From Polycyclovorans algicola TG408 (GTDB lineage: Bacteria; Pseudomonadota; Gammaproteobacteria; Nevskiales; Nevskiaceae): a DNA stretch of 64,000 nucleotides. Position numbers and translations under genes: made by a program. Position 1 is the stretch's first letter, and every line of letters begins with the position of its first letter. The DNA lies in NCBI RefSeq assembly GCF_000711245.1, contig NZ_JOMH01000001.1, forward strand, positions 2,598,830 to 2,662,829, in the 5' to 3' direction. Positions 35,125-44,270 of the stretch are shown piece after piece. The notes under the pieces are model-generated. The model did no database searches and was not told where the DNA came from. It was given only the letters and a program-made list of their open reading frames with translations.

Positions 35125-37305
35125 TCAGGCCGCCTTGCGCTTAAGACGGTAACCGTGCAGCAGCGGCTCGGTGTAACCACTGGGCTGCGCGCACCCTTCG
35201 AACACCAGCGCCAGCGCCGCCTGATAGGCGATACCGTCATAGCCCGGCGCCATCGGCTGGTAGCGCGGATCGCCGGCATTTTGCCGGTCGACAATCTTCG
35301 CCATGCGCTCGAACGTCTCAATTACCTGTTCTTTTTTACAGATTCCGTGCAGCAGCCAGTTGGCAATGTGCTGGCTGGAGATGCGCAAGGTGGCGCGGTC
35401 TTCCATCAGACCGACATCGTTGATGTCCGGCACCTTGGAGCAGCCCACACCCTGATCGATCCAGCGCACCACGTAGCCGAGAATGGTCTGCGCGCTGTTG
35501 TCCAGTTCTCGCTGCACCTGCTCGGCGCTGAGCCGGTCGCCGTCGGCCTGCACGGGAATCTGCAGGATGTCGTCAACCTTGGCGGGCGCCCGACTGCGAA
35601 GTTCTTCAATGCGGGCAAAGACGTCGACCTGATGATAGTGCGTGCTGTGCAGGGTGGCGCTGGTGGGTGACGGCACCCAGGCGGTGGTGGCACCGGCCTC
35701 GGGGTGGCCAATTTTCTGTTCGAGCATGTCGGCCATTTCATCGGGCATGGCCCACATCCCCTTGCCGATCTGTGCCTTGCCGGCGAGCCCGCAGGCGATG
35801 CCCACGTCGACATTCCAGTCTTCGTAGGTGCTGATCCATTTCTGCTGTTTCATCTTGGTCTTGGCGACCATGGGGCCGGCGTGCATCGAGGTGTGAATCT
35901 CGTCGCCCGTGCGGTCAAGGAAGCCGGTATTGATGAACACCACCCGGTGGCGGGCGGCATGGATGCAGGCCTTGAGGTTGACCGTGGTGCGGCGCTCCTC
36001 GTCCATGATGCCAATCTTCAGGGTATACGCCGGCAGGCCCAGCGCTTTTTCGATGGCGGCGAACAGGTCGTCGGCAAACGTGACTTCGTCCGGGCCGTGC
36101 ATTTTCGGCTTGACGATGTACACCGAGCCGCTGCGTGAGTTGCCTTTGTGGTCGCGCAGCGACTTGTCGGCTTTCAGATCGTGCATGGCGGCCAGCACGG
36201 TAAACATGCCGTCCATCAAGCCCTCGAAGACCTCATGGCCGTCCTTGTCGAGAATGGCCGGGTTGGTCATCAGGTGACCGACGTTGCGCACGAACAGGAG
36301 GCTGCGGGCGGGCAAGCGCAGCTCCCCGCCGTCCAGCGCCGTGTAAAAACGGTCTTCGTTGAGGCGCCGGGTGATGGTCTTGCCGCCCTTGACCATCTGT
36401 TCTTCTAGCGTGCCTTTCATCAGGCCCAACCAATTGCGGTAGACCTCGATCTTGTCTTCGGCGTCAACGGCCGCCACGGAGTCTTCGCAGTCCATGATGG
36501 TGGTGATGGCCGCCTCGACCAGCAGGTCCTTGACGCCGGCCGCATCGGTGGCGCCGATGGGGCTCTTCGGGTCGATCTGAATCTCGATGTGCAGGCCATT
36601 GTTCTTCAGCAGCACTGCGCTGGGGAAGGCGGCATCGCCCAGATACCCCACGCACTTTTCCGGCTGCGCCAGCCCCACGGTCGCGCCGTCCTTGAGCGTG
36701 ACCTGCAGCGCGCCATCAACGATGGCATAGGCCGTCGCATCGACGTGCGTCCCGGTTGCCAGCGGCGCAGCGGTATCGAGATGCTGGCGGGCAAAGGCGA
36801 TCACTTTGCCGCCGCGGACCGGGTTGTAGGCGCCGGCGCGCTCGGCACCGCCGTCTTCCGAGATCACATCCGAGCCGTAGAGCGCGTCATAGAGGCTGCC
36901 CCAGCGCGCGTTGGCGGCGTTCAGTGCATAGCGGGCGTTTTTTACCGGCACCACCAACTGCGGACCGGCCTGTTCGCGAATCTCGGTGTCGACGTTGGCG
37001 GTGTCGATTTCAAAGTCGGCCGGCTCGGGCTGCAGGTAGCCGATCTCGCCCAAGAATGCCTTGTACGCCGCCGCATCGTGGGGCTGCCCTTTGCGCGCCT
37101 TGTGCCAGTCATCAATCTTTGCCTGCAGCGCGTCGCGGTGCACAAGCAACGCGCGGTTGCGCGGGCCGAATTCATGAACGATGGCGTCGAACGCCGCCCA
37201 GACCGTTTCGGGTGAAACGCCGGTTCCGGGGGAGATTTCGGTGTCGACCAGCGCTTTGAGGGCCGCATTGACCTGAAGGCCGCCAACGGAAACAGATTGG
37301 GTCAT
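35125..37305 (-). CDS. glcB: Malate synthase G
   Basis: GlcB condenses glyoxylate and acetyl-CoA to malate, in glyoxylate and glycolate use. The 726-residue length is that of the G isoform. Visible are [18 protein letters not shown] (about 265), PKMHGPDEV (about 400), [13 protein letters not shown] (about 432, with the metal Glu) and the catalytic segment [10 protein letters not shown] towards the C-terminus. It follows the acetyltransferase-deacetylase pair by 112 bases on the same strand, linking it to acetyl-CoA metabolism. Confidence 0.97.
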
Positions 37306-37417
37306 GGTTTGAGATGTCCTGAAAGAATTCGAGTGGAGGGCGGCCGCTCGGCAGGGCCGGCGGGCGCAACCGTTCTATTTTAGTCGAAGCCGCCCAACGC
37401 CCGGGCCAAGGTGACAA

Positions 37418-38362
37418 TCAGGGTTCGGGCGCCATCAGTGAGGCCACGTGCGCCGACGCCGCGCGGCCCAGGGCGGCCAGGTCATAGCCGCCTTCCAGGG
37501 CCGAAACCGCGCGATGCTGGGCGCTGGTCGCCGTGACCTGCAATACCTTGCGGGTCACCCAGGCAAAGTCGTCGTCAGTCAGGTTCAGCTCGGCCAGCGG
37601 GTCTTCGGTGTGGGCGTCAAAGCCAGCCGAGAACAACACCAACTCGGGGGCATGCGCTTCAAGCGCCGCCACCCAGGTCTGCGACACGCCGTGGCGAAAC
37701 TCCGCGCTGCTGTCGCCACGGCGCAGCATCAGGTTGCTCTGTCCGGCAGCGCTGCCCGCCGGGTACAGCAGCGGATACAGCGGGTACTGATAAAGCGAGC
37801 ACAACAGAATGCGCGGGTCATCGGCGACGATATCGGCGGTACCGTTGCCGTAGTGCACATCGAAATCGATGATCGCCACCCGCTGCAGGCCGTGCGCCTC
37901 CAGCGCATGCAGGGCCCCGATGGCGATGTTGTTGTAAAAACAAAAGCCCATTGCACGCCCGCGCTCGGCGTGGTGCCCCGGCGGGCGAACATTGCAGAAC
38001 GCCGCGTCGGCCGCGCCGCTCAGCACCCGGTCAACCGCCGCCACCACCGCACCGGCTGCGTGGCGGGCGGCATCAAGGCTGAGGTGGGTCATCACGGTGT
38101 CGGGGCAAACGGCGCGTTGTTGGCCGGCGGCGCGGGGCGCCATGCGGGCCAACCCGTCGAGCATCTCCGGCGTGTGCGCACGGGCCAGTTGCGCGTCGCT
38201 GGCCGGGCCGGCGGTCTGCCGTTGCAGGCGGTCGAGCAGACCGTCTGCGGCCAGTTGGCGCTCAATCGCGACCAGCCGCGCCGGCTGCTCGGGGTGTCCG
38301 TCGCCCATGTCATGCAGTGCGCACGCTGGGTGGGTGACGTAATCGGTGCGCCGTGCGCTCAT
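37418..38362 (-). CDS. HDAC-family deacetylase (AcuC / acetylpolyamine amidohydrolase type)
   Basis: The 314-residue protein is a zinc-dependent class I/II HDAC homologue. Catalytic and metal motifs are RPPGHHAERG (about 125), DFDVHYGNGT (about 165), AGFDAHTEDPLAEL (about 247) and the final EGGYDL. Its ATG overlaps the stop of the upstream acetyltransferase gene as ATGA, so the two are translationally coupled. It probably removes acetyl groups from lysines of metabolic enzymes such as acetyl-CoA synthetase, as AcuC does in Bacillus (family knowledge). Confidence 0.92.
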   Translation of the reverse strand: MSARRTDYVTHPACALHDMGDGHPEQPARLVAIERQLAADGLLDRLQRQTAGPASDAQLARAHTPEMLDGLARMAPRAAGQQRAVCPDTVMTHLSLDAARHAAGAVVAAVDRVLSGAADAAFCNVRPPGHHAERGRAMGFCFYNNIAIGALHALEAHGLQRVAIIDFDVHYGNGTADIVADDPRILLCSLYQYPLYPLLYPAGSAAGQSNLMLRRGDSSAEFRHGVSQTWVAALEAHAPELVLFSAGFDAHTEDPLAELNLTDDDFAWVTRKVLQVTATSAQHRAVSALEGGYDLAALGRAASAHVASLMAPEP

Positions 38363-41055
38363 GCGTCGCCCGCCGCCTGCGGCAGTGTGTACGTCACGCG
38401 CCTGACCCCCGGGTCCGCCGGACTGCGGGTCACGGTGAACCCCATTGATCGGCTCAACGACAGCATCACCTCGTTGTATTCGAGCACGTCGCCTATCACC
38501 GCCCGCACCCCCTGCGCCGCCGCGTAGTCGATGATCCGCGCCAACATGCGCCGCCCCATGCCCTGCCCGCGCACGCTCTGGCCGGTGATGATGGCGAACT
38601 CGGCTTGCTCGCGATCCGGATCGATGACCAGCCGCACCACGCCATGAATCTGTGCTTTGCCGGGCACGCCCGGTCCCACCAGGGCCAGGGCCATCTCGCG
38701 GTCGTAGTCGATCTGCGTCAGCCGCGCGGCGAAGCTGTGGCCCATCCCGTGCATGAAGGCGTGAAACCGCAGGTGCACCTCTTCCGGCGTCAGCCGACTG
38801 AACGCGGCCTGCAACTCGGGCTCATCCTCGGGGCGGATGGGGCGCAGCAACAGGCGGCGTCCGTCCGGCAGGTCGACGGTCTGCTCCAGCTCGCGCGGGT
38901 ACGGGCGGATGGCGAGGCGATCGACCTGGGGTCGCAGATGAATTCGGCAACGGGCATCGACCGCCACCAGGCCATCGGTCGTCAGCAGCAGCGGATTGAT
39001 GTCGAGTTCGCGCACCTGCGGCTGGTCGATCAGCAACTGCGAGAGCTTGACCAAAATCAACGCCAGTGCGTCACGGTCCAGCGCCTGCCGGCCCGGATGC
39101 TCAGCCAAAAGCCGAGCGACGCGGGTGCGGTCGATCAGGCGCCTGGCGAGCTGCAGGTTCAGCGGCGGCAGCGCCACGGCCGTGTCGGCGATCACTTCGG
39201 TGGCGGTGCCGCCGTGACCAAACAGAATGACCGGTCCAAACAGGGGGTCTTCGGCGATGCCCACCAGCAATTCGATGCCCTGCTGCGCGTCAACCATCGG
39301 TTGCACGGCAAAACCCTTGATGTGCAGCTTTGGATGCGTGGCGCGCAGCCGCACCTGCAATGCTGCGGTGGCTGCGCGCACTGCGTCGGGCCCGTCAAGA
39401 TTGAGCAGCACGCCACCGACCTCGGATTTGTCACGTCGCTCGTGCGTCACCACTTTGACGGCCACCGGCCGCGCCCAATCGAGCGCGATGGCGGCGGCCT
39501 CGTCCGGCGACTTGGCAAAGCGCTCATCAACCATCGGCACCTGATAGGCGCGCAGTAAAGCCGCGCATTGCGGACTGCTCAGCCAAGGCGATCCCGTCTT
39601 GACTGCCGCGTCGAGCACTTGCCGGCCTGACGCCGCATCGGGCGCGAAGTGCTCGGGCAGCGATGGCGGCGTTTCGAGCACCTCGGCCTGCACCTCGCGG
39701 TAGTGCACCAGGTGCAAGAACGCGGTCACCGCCTGGGCGGGCCCCTCGTAACTCGGCAGGCCATGGGTGATCAGCCAGCGGCGCGCGGCCTCGGCCGTGT
39801 GGGCGCCGACCCAGGCGGTCAGCACCGCAGCATTCGGGTGCGCGGCGGCGGCTTCGGCCACGACCCGCGTGGTGGCAAGGCTGTCGGCAACACCGGTCGG
39901 CGAGTTCAACACCAGCACGGTGGCGGTGTCGGGCTCGGCCAACAACACGTCGAGCGCGGCGCGATAACGTTGGGCGTCGGCATCGCCGACTAGGTCGATC
40001 GGGTTGCGGCCTGACCAGCTTCGGGGCAGTACCGCGTCCAGCCGCTGGCGCATGGCAGGTGATAGCTCAGCCAGCTCGCCGCCCTGCCCGCGCAAGGCGT
40101 CGGCCGCCAGCAACCCCAGTCCGGCGCTGTTACTGACGATGGTCAGCCTGCGCCCGTAACGTCGCGGTGCCGAGGCCAGGGTGGCGGCGGCATCGAACAG
40201 GTCCTCAAGCCGGTCGACACGCACAATGCCCGAACGACGCAGCGCCGCGCCATAGACGGCATCAGCGTCCATCAACGCTGCGGTGTGCGTCTGGGGGTCT
40301 GCAGGCAGCACCGCATAGCGGCCTGCCTTGACGGCGATGATGGGCTTCTGACGGGATGCCGCCCGCGCCGCCGATAGAAATTTGCGCGGCGCGCTGAGGG
40401 TTTCCATGTACAGAAGAATGGCCCCGGTATCGCGGTCCATTGCCAGATAATCCAGCATGTCGCCGAAGTCGACATCGGCCATGTCACCCAACGACACGAG
40501 ATGCGAAAAGCCAATCTCGCGCGGCGCGGCCCAGTCGAGCACCGCTGAAATGACCGCGCCTGACTGGGTCACGAACGCCAGGCGCCCGGCGCGCAGCGGC
40601 AGATGGGCAAAGCTGGCGTTCAGGCCGCTGGCGGTGGCCGCCACGCCCAAACAATTCGGCCCGATGATGCGCATCAGACTGGGCCGCGCCGCATCAAGAA
40701 TCTGTTGTTGCAGACGCTGGCGAGCAGCATCTTCCAGCTCACCGAAACCGGCGGTGATGATGATGGCGCCGCGGGTGCCGCGCTCGGCAAGTTGTTTGAT
40801 CAGCCCCGGCACCACCTCGGGCGGGGTGGCAATGACCGCAAGCTCAGGCGTCTCGGGTAACGCGGCCACCGAGGCGTAGACCGGCCGGCCGCGCAAGGTC
40901 TGTAAGCGTGGGTGGACCAGATCAATCCGCTCGGGATCGCCGCCGTCCAACAGGTTGCCGGCCAGCACCGACCCCACCGATCGCTCGCGCGCACTGGCAC
41001 CGATCAGGGCGATGCGCCGAGGCTTGAACAACGCGTCCAGGTTGCGGGTGGTCAT
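38359..41055 (-). CDS. Pat/PatZ-type protein lysine acetyltransferase (NDP-forming acyl-CoA synthetase + GNAT)
   Basis: This 898-residue protein has the full layout of Salmonella Pat / E. coli PatZ. First comes a CoA-binding Rossmann domain (RRIALIGASARERSVGSVL, about 13). The NDP-forming ligase domains follow (RIIGPNCLGVAA, FVTQSGAVISAVLDWA, LVSLGDMADVDFGDML), then an ATP-grasp region and a C-terminal GNAT domain (about 740-890, with SVRGQGMGRRMLARIIDYA). Pat proteins acetylate and inactivate acetyl-CoA synthetase. In most genomes the deacetylase is a sirtuin elsewhere; here an HDAC-type gene overlaps it by 4 bases. Confidence 0.93.
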   Translation of the reverse strand: MTTRNLDALFKPRRIALIGASARERSVGSVLAGNLLDGGDPERIDLVHPRLQTLRGRPVYASVAALPETPELAVIATPPEVVPGLIKQLAERGTRGAIIITAGFGELEDAARQRLQQQILDAARPSLMRIIGPNCLGVAATASGLNASFAHLPLRAGRLAFVTQSGAVISAVLDWAAPREIGFSHLVSLGDMADVDFGDMLDYLAMDRDTGAILLYMETLSAPRKFLSAARAASRQKPIIAVKAGRYAVLPADPQTHTAALMDADAVYGAALRRSGIVRVDRLEDLFDAAATLASAPRRYGRRLTIVSNSAGLGLLAADALRGQGGELAELSPAMRQRLDAVLPRSWSGRNPIDLVGDADAQRYRAALDVLLAEPDTATVLVLNSPTGVADSLATTRVVAEAAAAHPNAAVLTAWVGAHTAEAARRWLITHGLPSYEGPAQAVTAFLHLVHYREVQAEVLETPPSLPEHFAPDAASGRQVLDAAVKTGSPWLSSPQCAALLRAYQVPMVDERFAKSPDEAAAIALDWARPVAVKVVTHERRDKSEVGGVLLNLDGPDAVRAATAALQVRLRATHPKLHIKGFAVQPMVDAQQGIELLVGIAEDPLFGPVILFGHGGTATEVIADTAVALPPLNLQLARRLIDRTRVARLLAEHPGRQALDRDALALILVKLSQLLIDQPQVRELDINPLLLTTDGLVAVDARCRIHLRPQVDRLAIRPYPRELEQTVDLPDGRRLLLRPIRPEDEPELQAAFSRLTPEEVHLRFHAFMHGMGHSFAARLTQIDYDREMALALVGPGVPGKAQIHGVVRLVIDPDREQAEFAIITGQSVRGQGMGRRMLARIIDYAAAQGVRAVIGDVLEYNEVMLSLSRSMGFTVTRSPADPGVRRVTYTLPQAAGDA

Positions 41056-41200
41056 GGGTCTCGAAGCGTACGGGCCACAACCCTGACGTTAACGCCGAAT
41101 CGCCTGACGCGTTGCATGACGACATTGGGTTGGCCGCACACGAGGGACAAGGCGGCTAGTGTTCATTGAGTTCAGTCAGCACTGATCAAATGATCGGGTC

Positions 41201-44270
<3,070 letters not shown>

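Follow-up and report, generated by a model that had tools for sequence, protein, structure and literature searches.

Acetyltransferase and deacetylase genes that adjoin in Polycyclovorans algicola and other Gammaproteobacteria: a putative writer-eraser pair for lysine acetylation

When the gene of a protein acetyltransferase runs into the gene of a deacetylase, do the two enzymes work on the same proteins? The question is raised by a locus in Polycyclovorans algicola TG408 (Gammaproteobacteria, Nevskiaceae), found in a stretch of 64,000 nucleotides that is called the window here. A gene for a Pat/PatZ-type lysine acetyltransferase (Pat) comes first in this locus and is followed, with an overlap of four bases, by a gene for an enzyme of the histone deacetylase (HDAC) family (Table 1). 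Both enzymes and the overlap had been named in an earlier interpretation of the DNA letters (the sequence-only reading), and they are borne out by the open reading frames, by Pfam and by the ATGA at 38359-38362. The coordinates given there, 38359-41055, are those of the acetyltransferase gene, and the deacetylase gene occupies 37418-38362. With moderate confidence we regard the two genes as a writer-eraser module, in which one product acetylates lysines at N-epsilon and the other reverses this. That they are writer and eraser, as proposed earlier, is supported by their co-occurrence and adjacency in other genomes.

Co-occurrence and adjacency of the two genes

A class sample of 185 genomes from 177 genera was drawn evenly from the class of the window. 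Cut-offs were E <= 1e-60 for HDAC, E <= 1e-120 for full-length Pat (with the window protein as query) and E <= 1e-15 for sirtuin (Sir2). HDAC is present in 40 genomes, sirtuin in 36, and full-length Pat in 42, a cut-off that leaves short or distant Pats uncounted. HDAC and Pat are found together in 32 genomes, against about 9 expected if they were independent (odds ratio 54, Fisher p 8e-20, in a test that ignores relatedness and genome size; odds ratio 52, p 3e-19 without P. algicola itself). The association of sirtuin and Pat, a partial control only for genome size, is weaker (17 of the 42 Pat genomes; odds ratio 4.4, p 3e-4) and is not significant once HDAC is accounted for: excluding P. algicola, the odds ratio is 1.2 (p = 1) among HDAC carriers and 3.2 (p = 0.13) among genomes without HDAC. 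Sirtuin was thus rejected as the better partner of Pat.

The two genes are also often neighbors. They lie within 5 kb of each other in 18 of the 32 genomes with both (P. algicola, handled separately, is included; the neighborhood search covered 39 of the 40 HDAC genomes, and genes split over contigs of draft genomes count as apart, e.g., in G040, where Pat is at a contig end). Of these close pairs, 12 are head-to-head, four have Pat followed by HDAC (P. algicola, G064, G209, and G214), and two are tail-to-tail (G146, and G124 with the genes 2.5 kb apart). Co-occurrence is seen also where the genes are unlinked. By comparison, Pat and sirtuin were within 5 kb in none of the 17 genomes carrying both (coordinates compared by eye). 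The sequence-only reading had called the pairing unusual for proteobacteria; the class sample, in which HDAC predicts Pat better than sirtuin does, does not bear this out.

Close relatives (the 60 closest other genomes plus P. algicola) were compared as well. The two other genomes of the genus are without close relatives of either gene; neither gene was matched in G001, and G002 has distant matches only (HDAC 5.9e-19, Pat 3.5e-4). In the family, HDAC (E <= 1e-60) is found in 27 of 37 genomes and Pat is beside it in 23 of the 27, with G008 and G019 scored as adjacent from coordinates only. Two of these pairs have the gene order seen in the window (P. algicola and G003), and 21 have HDAC with a shorter Pat directly downstream. 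The family genomes with HDAC and no adjoining Pat are G004, G014, G028, and G031. Outside the family, none of the 17 HDAC-carrying genomes of the same order has Pat within 5 kb of HDAC.

Two further sets extend the survey. Among the named loci, which are the best 80 of 532 HDAC relatives with some stretches cut near HDAC, Pat is beside HDAC in 63, mostly from Halomonadaceae (62 head-to-head, one tail-to-tail). A phylum sample of 200 genomes (HDAC E <= 1e-55) gave 60 HDAC genomes, of which 55 were examined, P. algicola and four already searched being excluded. Seventeen of them are of the same class, and Pat is within 5 kb in eight (G285, G305, G321, G371, G375, G391, G407, and G419, the last at 4.1 kb). 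In the other classes of the phylum Pat is within 5 kb in 0 of 38 HDAC genomes, though 21 have Pat at E <= 1e-120. Two genomes from another class carry, roughly 7 kb away from HDAC, a Pat-like acyl-coenzyme A (acyl-CoA) synthetase whose match is limited to the ligase part (G348:C1:3407118-3415729, G302:C2:549756-558827).

Adjacency is not confined to one lineage of Pat. Quick trees with Shimodaira-Hasegawa-like (SH-aLRT) support only were made from 98 of 152 HDAC loci plus the window, and from 71 chosen Pat rows. The Pat rows take in a minority of the Halomonas sequences and neither partial Pats nor family-f6 short Pats; L215, L230, and L231 form long branches, and frame-length labels were corrected from the aligned stretches (L157, L160, L161, and L186 are short Pats, L068 is not). 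On the Pat tree, adjacency is spread over window-like Pats, short Pats, Halomonadaceae and near kin, a large clade in which most pairs are head-to-head, and L010, which is tail-to-tail. Of the sequences on this tree, E. coli PatZ (L252) is sister to the HDAC-facing Pats of Halomonadaceae, Marinospirillum and Terasakiispira (support 99, starred). The order Pat then HDAC needs four changes on the Pat tree, at least two of them forced by starred branches, and four on the HDAC tree, all forced by such branches. Therefore, the pair has been rearranged or assembled several times. The finding of the same two genes side by side in many relatives and in several orientations suggests a paired role for them.

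The two enzymes and their junction

The HDAC of the window belongs to the histone deacetylase family (Hist_deacetyl, PF00850, E 2.9e-80). Among solved structures it is closest to 5ji5 from Burkholderia phymatum (E 1.2e-86), a member of the histone deacetylase superfamily for which we know of no function. A model from the single sequence reached a predicted local distance difference test score (pLDDT) of 41 and was not used; the AlphaFold model from alignment A1 has a pLDDT of 95.4 and 5ji5 as its best Foldseek match (TM-score 0.94). VIA-align places the two structures at Z 50.1, with a root-mean-square deviation of 1.1 over 305 residues and 47% identity. By the motif list that Graf et al. give for classical Zn-dependent deacylases (PMC11532494), the enzyme falls in cluster 1 (class II-like), with the double His, the Asp-His-Asp metal site, GFC, RPPxHH and EGGY. 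The same source links the RPP and EGGY motifs to removal of acetyl groups.

The HdaH enzymes of sub-cluster 1b (KpHdaH and the HDAH of Pseudomonas aeruginosa and Bordetella) share the class II-like fold and both motifs, with VIA-align Z of 44-45 for the Bordetella and P. aeruginosa enzymes. The window HDAC is nearer to 5ji5 and is shorter at both ends. By its overall pairwise alignment it appears to lack the N-terminal L1-loop and the extra C-terminal helix of sub-cluster 1b: its residues 19 and 294 correspond to residues 46 and 325 of the 382 in 9glb, so that it is some 27 residues shorter on the N-terminal side and 37 on the C-terminal side. To place it in sub-cluster 1a is a guess only.

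The motifs leave more than one type of substrate to consider. The HDAC might be an amidohydrolase for acetylpolyamines or free acetyl-lysine, with Pat acting on proteins independently and the two genes being neighbors through the economy of acetyl-CoA and acetate. We consider this unlikely. RPP and EGGY do not rule out polyamines, because bacterial acetylpolyamine amidohydrolases (ApaH) carry RPPGHH and EGGY too (PMC11532494). Moreover, HDAC is followed in both G043 and G049, with an ATGA overlap, by a stand-alone GNAT of small-molecule type that resembles thialysine and diamine acetyltransferases (PDB 12jc at E 1e-53 for L175; diamine acetyltransferase 2 at E 2e-26). These HDACs fall with that of the window in the second-smallest starred set of the tree (5 rows, support 96), the smallest being the window and G003. 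Against this explanation, the commonest partner of HDAC is a Pat-type protein acetyltransferase, and the window HDAC is nearer to the HDAH of Bordetella and P. aeruginosa (2e-45 to 1e-42) than to HDAC10 (8e-32) or the acetylpolyamine amidohydrolase 6phr (2.9e-22, against 1.2e-86 for 5ji5, among the best 60 of 137 PDB matches). ApaH (cluster 4) is thus not its closest relative. The gatekeeper residue is Leu and not Glu. In HDAC10 the gatekeeper Glu selects for polyamines, and its change to Leu raises lysine deacetylase activity (cited in PMC11532494). Hence, the sequence suggests, without settling the point, that the window HDAC is not an HDAC10-type enzyme.

In the loci of G043 and G049 (L175:3545-4027, minus strand, and L176), a different writer stands beside the same eraser. 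In G197, the partner of HDAC is a Pat-type GNAT domain alone, placed head-to-head. What the HDAC pairs have in common is a GNAT of one type or another.

The writer has the Pat/PatZ architecture, an acyl-CoA synthetase-like region of the NDP-forming type fused to a C-terminal GNAT. Pfam recognizes CoA_binding_2, Succ_CoA_lig, Ligase_CoA_2 and ATP-grasp_5 before the GNAT domain. The best PDB matches are 9it0 and 9isq, both named "Protein acetyltransferase", and 9it0 matches over the full length (residues 1-892, E 7e-178). E819 aligns with E809 of E. coli PatZ, which we take to be the catalytic Glu of the GNAT. H257 stands at what is presumably the phospho-histidine position of ADP-forming acyl-CoA synthetases, and D542 at what we take to be that of the second ligase histidine. 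Both positions are His in 38 of 51 aligned long Pats; Asp at position 542 is found in the window protein only. Since the second position is Asp and not His, the ligase half of this Pat is probably inactive.

The Pat-like protein could instead be mainly an ADP-forming acyl-CoA synthetase, with HDAC recycling or supplying acetate. The 38 long Pats with both histidines and the recognition of ligase domains by Pfam fit this idea, which we nevertheless judge very improbable. Besides D542 in the window protein, the short Pats argue against it. These proteins of about 760-800 amino acids (e.g., L154:4129-6471, L155:2991-5357, and G041:C37:80902-83199) lack half of the ATP-grasp domain and retain the GNAT and, in the family of the window, the HDAC neighbor: residues 511-620 are filled to 28% in 20 aligned short Pats against 100% in the remaining Pats, and neither of the two short Pats scanned with Pfam shows an ATP-grasp domain. 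The GNAT Glu is nevertheless present in 71 of 71 aligned Pats, and the lone GNAT domain of G197 has no ligase part at all.

The ATGA at the Pat-HDAC junction is also found in G003 (L152) and G064 (L203). A scan for terminators gave 6 terminator-like sites against 3.1 expected, none of them at this junction. The overlap alone says little, because the HDAC start of an uncultured Haliea (L047) overlaps by four bases with an unrelated gene, that of a 707-amino-acid predicted membrane protein with no Pfam match (L047:2869-4992). It is the recurrence of the adjacency in other genomes that makes the pair more than chance. Chance or inherited neighborhood without a functional link, to which such overlaps, the 14 of 32 genomes with the genes apart and the non-independence of related genomes might point, is accordingly the least probable explanation, given four arrangements (Pat then HDAC, HDAC then shortened Pat, head-to-head, and tail-to-tail) across several Pat clades, co-occurrence of unlinked genes, and no other widely shared gene.

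Table 1. Features of the Pat-HDAC locus (positions in the window)
Feature	Position	Strand	Basis or conservation
Pat gene, PatZ-type lysine acetyltransferase (898 aa, ATG start)	38359..41055	-	Open reading frame, Pfam, 9it0 match
HDAC gene, class II-like Zn-dependent deacetylase (314 aa, ATG start)	37418..38362	-	Open reading frame, PF00850, structure match
ATGA shared by Pat stop and HDAC start	38359..38362	-	Also in G003 and G064
Pat E819 codon, GNAT Glu aligned with E. coli PatZ E809	38599..38601	-	Glu in 71/71 aligned Pats
Pat H257 codon, ligase position retained	40285..40287	-	His in 39/51 long Pats
Pat D542 codon, ligase His lost	39430..39432	-	His in 46/51 long Pats
HDAC RPPGHH motif, residues 126-131	37970..37987	-	In 99/99 aligned HDACs
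HDAC EGGY motif with catalytic Tyr, residues 290-293	37484..37495	-	In 99/99 aligned HDACs
HDAC gatekeeper L256 (DPLA), Glu in human HDAC10	37595..37597	-	L/M/I in 98/99, Q in 1
Malate synthase G gene, 3' of HDAC after a 112-base gap	35125-37305		Open reading frame search

Proposed mechanism, candidate target and known systems

In the writer-eraser module that we favor, Pat would use acetyl-CoA, and its GNAT would acetylate lysines of metabolic enzymes and so switch them off. HDAC, a Zn-dependent hydrolase that needs no NAD for the reaction, would take the acetyl groups off and so switch its targets on again. Pat would be read first and HDAC coupled to it through the ATGA overlap, so that both are made together. 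Pat would most likely act on AMP-forming acyl-CoA synthetases, for instance on the lysine in the PKTRSGK motif of AcsA. A single AcsA of P. algicola (C1:3369246-3371105) scores above the family cut-off; it has the acetylatable motif PKTRSGKIMRR close to the C-terminus, and we infer that this protein is the leading candidate target. A precedent for these roles is found in Rhodopseudomonas palustris, in which RpPat acetylates Acs and other acyl-CoA synthetases and the HDAC-type LdaA reverses this (PMC6640162).

Several observations weigh against the module. AcsA is about 0.7 Mb from the pair. HDACs of cluster 1b left BsAcsA K549ac acetylated, while the cluster-4 enzyme PsApaH removed this acetyl group (PMC11532494); the failure of the former need not carry over, because the window HDAC is shorter than the 1b enzymes at both ends. 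In the class sample, eight of the 40 HDAC genomes are without a long Pat, and the genes are apart in the 14 genomes mentioned above. Among the 17 order-mates of other families with HDAC, 11 carry a short-type Pat away from it. The small-molecule GNAT in G043 and G049 belongs here as well. A promoter consensus scan of 37000-41400 gave 0 promoter-like sites, which says little, as 0.4 were expected by chance. Finally, sirtuin is kept in 51 of 61 relatives including P. algicola, which has a second HDAC too, and in 20 of the 23 pair-carrying genomes of the family. The pair has therefore not replaced sirtuin in this family. For this reason the earlier suggestion of a sirtuin elsewhere as the usual partner of Pat holds in part: sirtuin is there in P. 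algicola, in most of the family pairs and in the 17 Pat genomes of the class sample, with a weaker association to Pat than that of HDAC.

A broader proposal is more tentative. Across the class, acetylation by Pat may usually, and perhaps from the beginning, be reversed by a class II-like HDAC and not by a CobB-type sirtuin, with the genes joined repeatedly, and the ligase-shortened Pat may serve as a writer only, physically bound to HDAC; we hold this as a possibility that is less probable than not.

AcuA of Bacillus subtilis is a small GNAT. It is not a ligase-GNAT fusion like the writer of the window. The acuABC genes and AcsA are otherwise the nearest parallel: a GNAT writer and a Zn-dependent eraser are encoded together, and control of AcsA is predicted at our locus likewise (PMC8556138, PMC11532494). 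The idea of acuABC-like logic with unrelated proteins, put forward in the sequence-only reading, is supported, and we infer that the pair may work like AcuA and AcuC while being built from other protein types. AcuC is of cluster 2c (class I-like), in contrast to the class II-like HDAC of the window, which has neither AcuB nor a third conserved gene beside it. Because the writer architecture and the HDAC class differ and AcuB is absent, the pair is not a member of acuABC.

Pat (PatZ) of Salmonella and E. coli has the same architecture as the writer of the window. CobB is encoded at another locus than Pat, and no sirtuin is annotated in the 7 kb surrounding E. coli patZ. This known eraser is a sirtuin (PMC6640162), whereas the eraser of the window is a Zn hydrolase encoded by the next gene. 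The R. palustris system (RpPat/KatA with LdaA and SrtN) is again one in which an HDAC-type enzyme deacetylates the targets of a proteobacterial Pat (PMC6640162). For comparison, no Pat lies within 5 kb in the 38 HDAC genomes sampled from other classes of the phylum.

Erasure of Pat acetylation is known best from systems in which a sirtuin performs it (PMC6640162). No Sir2 match at E <= 1e-15 is found in 12 of the 18 adjacent-pair genomes of the class sample, where other deacetylase families were not searched, and the neighboring HDAC is a direct candidate for the eraser there. If the module is real, a function could be assigned to those bacterial HDACs that group with 5ji5, which are not most like the enzymes named by Graf et al. 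(sub-clusters 1b, 2c, 3, 4, and 5b; PMC11532494). The module would also be a metabolic switch in which targets are reactivated independently of NAD. No report of Pat-HDAC pairing was found in titles and abstract openings, with few subscription papers covered, which is not proof that none exists.

Neighboring genes and further copies

Malate synthase G follows the pair in the window and had been linked to it on that ground. The link does not hold: the gene was found beside none of the 105 other paired loci (tblastn E <= 1e-20; about 5 kb on each side, sometimes cut by contig ends) and was ruled out as a third member. AcsA beside the pair was ruled out as a rule as well, an AcsA-like gene being near one of the 105 paired loci. 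When genes were clustered in 50 of these loci, all 50 had HDAC, 48 had Pat or else a GNAT of Pat type, and the next commonest cluster was present in five, so that no third conserved gene is widespread.

The second HDAC of P. algicola (L190, C1:1068000-1077000) is 31% identical to that of the window; an AraC-type regulator and a fatty acid desaturase are encoded nearby. A search of plasmids gave 27 records with a relative (<60% identity), 15 of them from Azospirillum. Two genomes have two HDAC-Pat pairs each, G107 (L215 and L220) and G006 (L168 and L169); the Pat of L215 is a very long branch.

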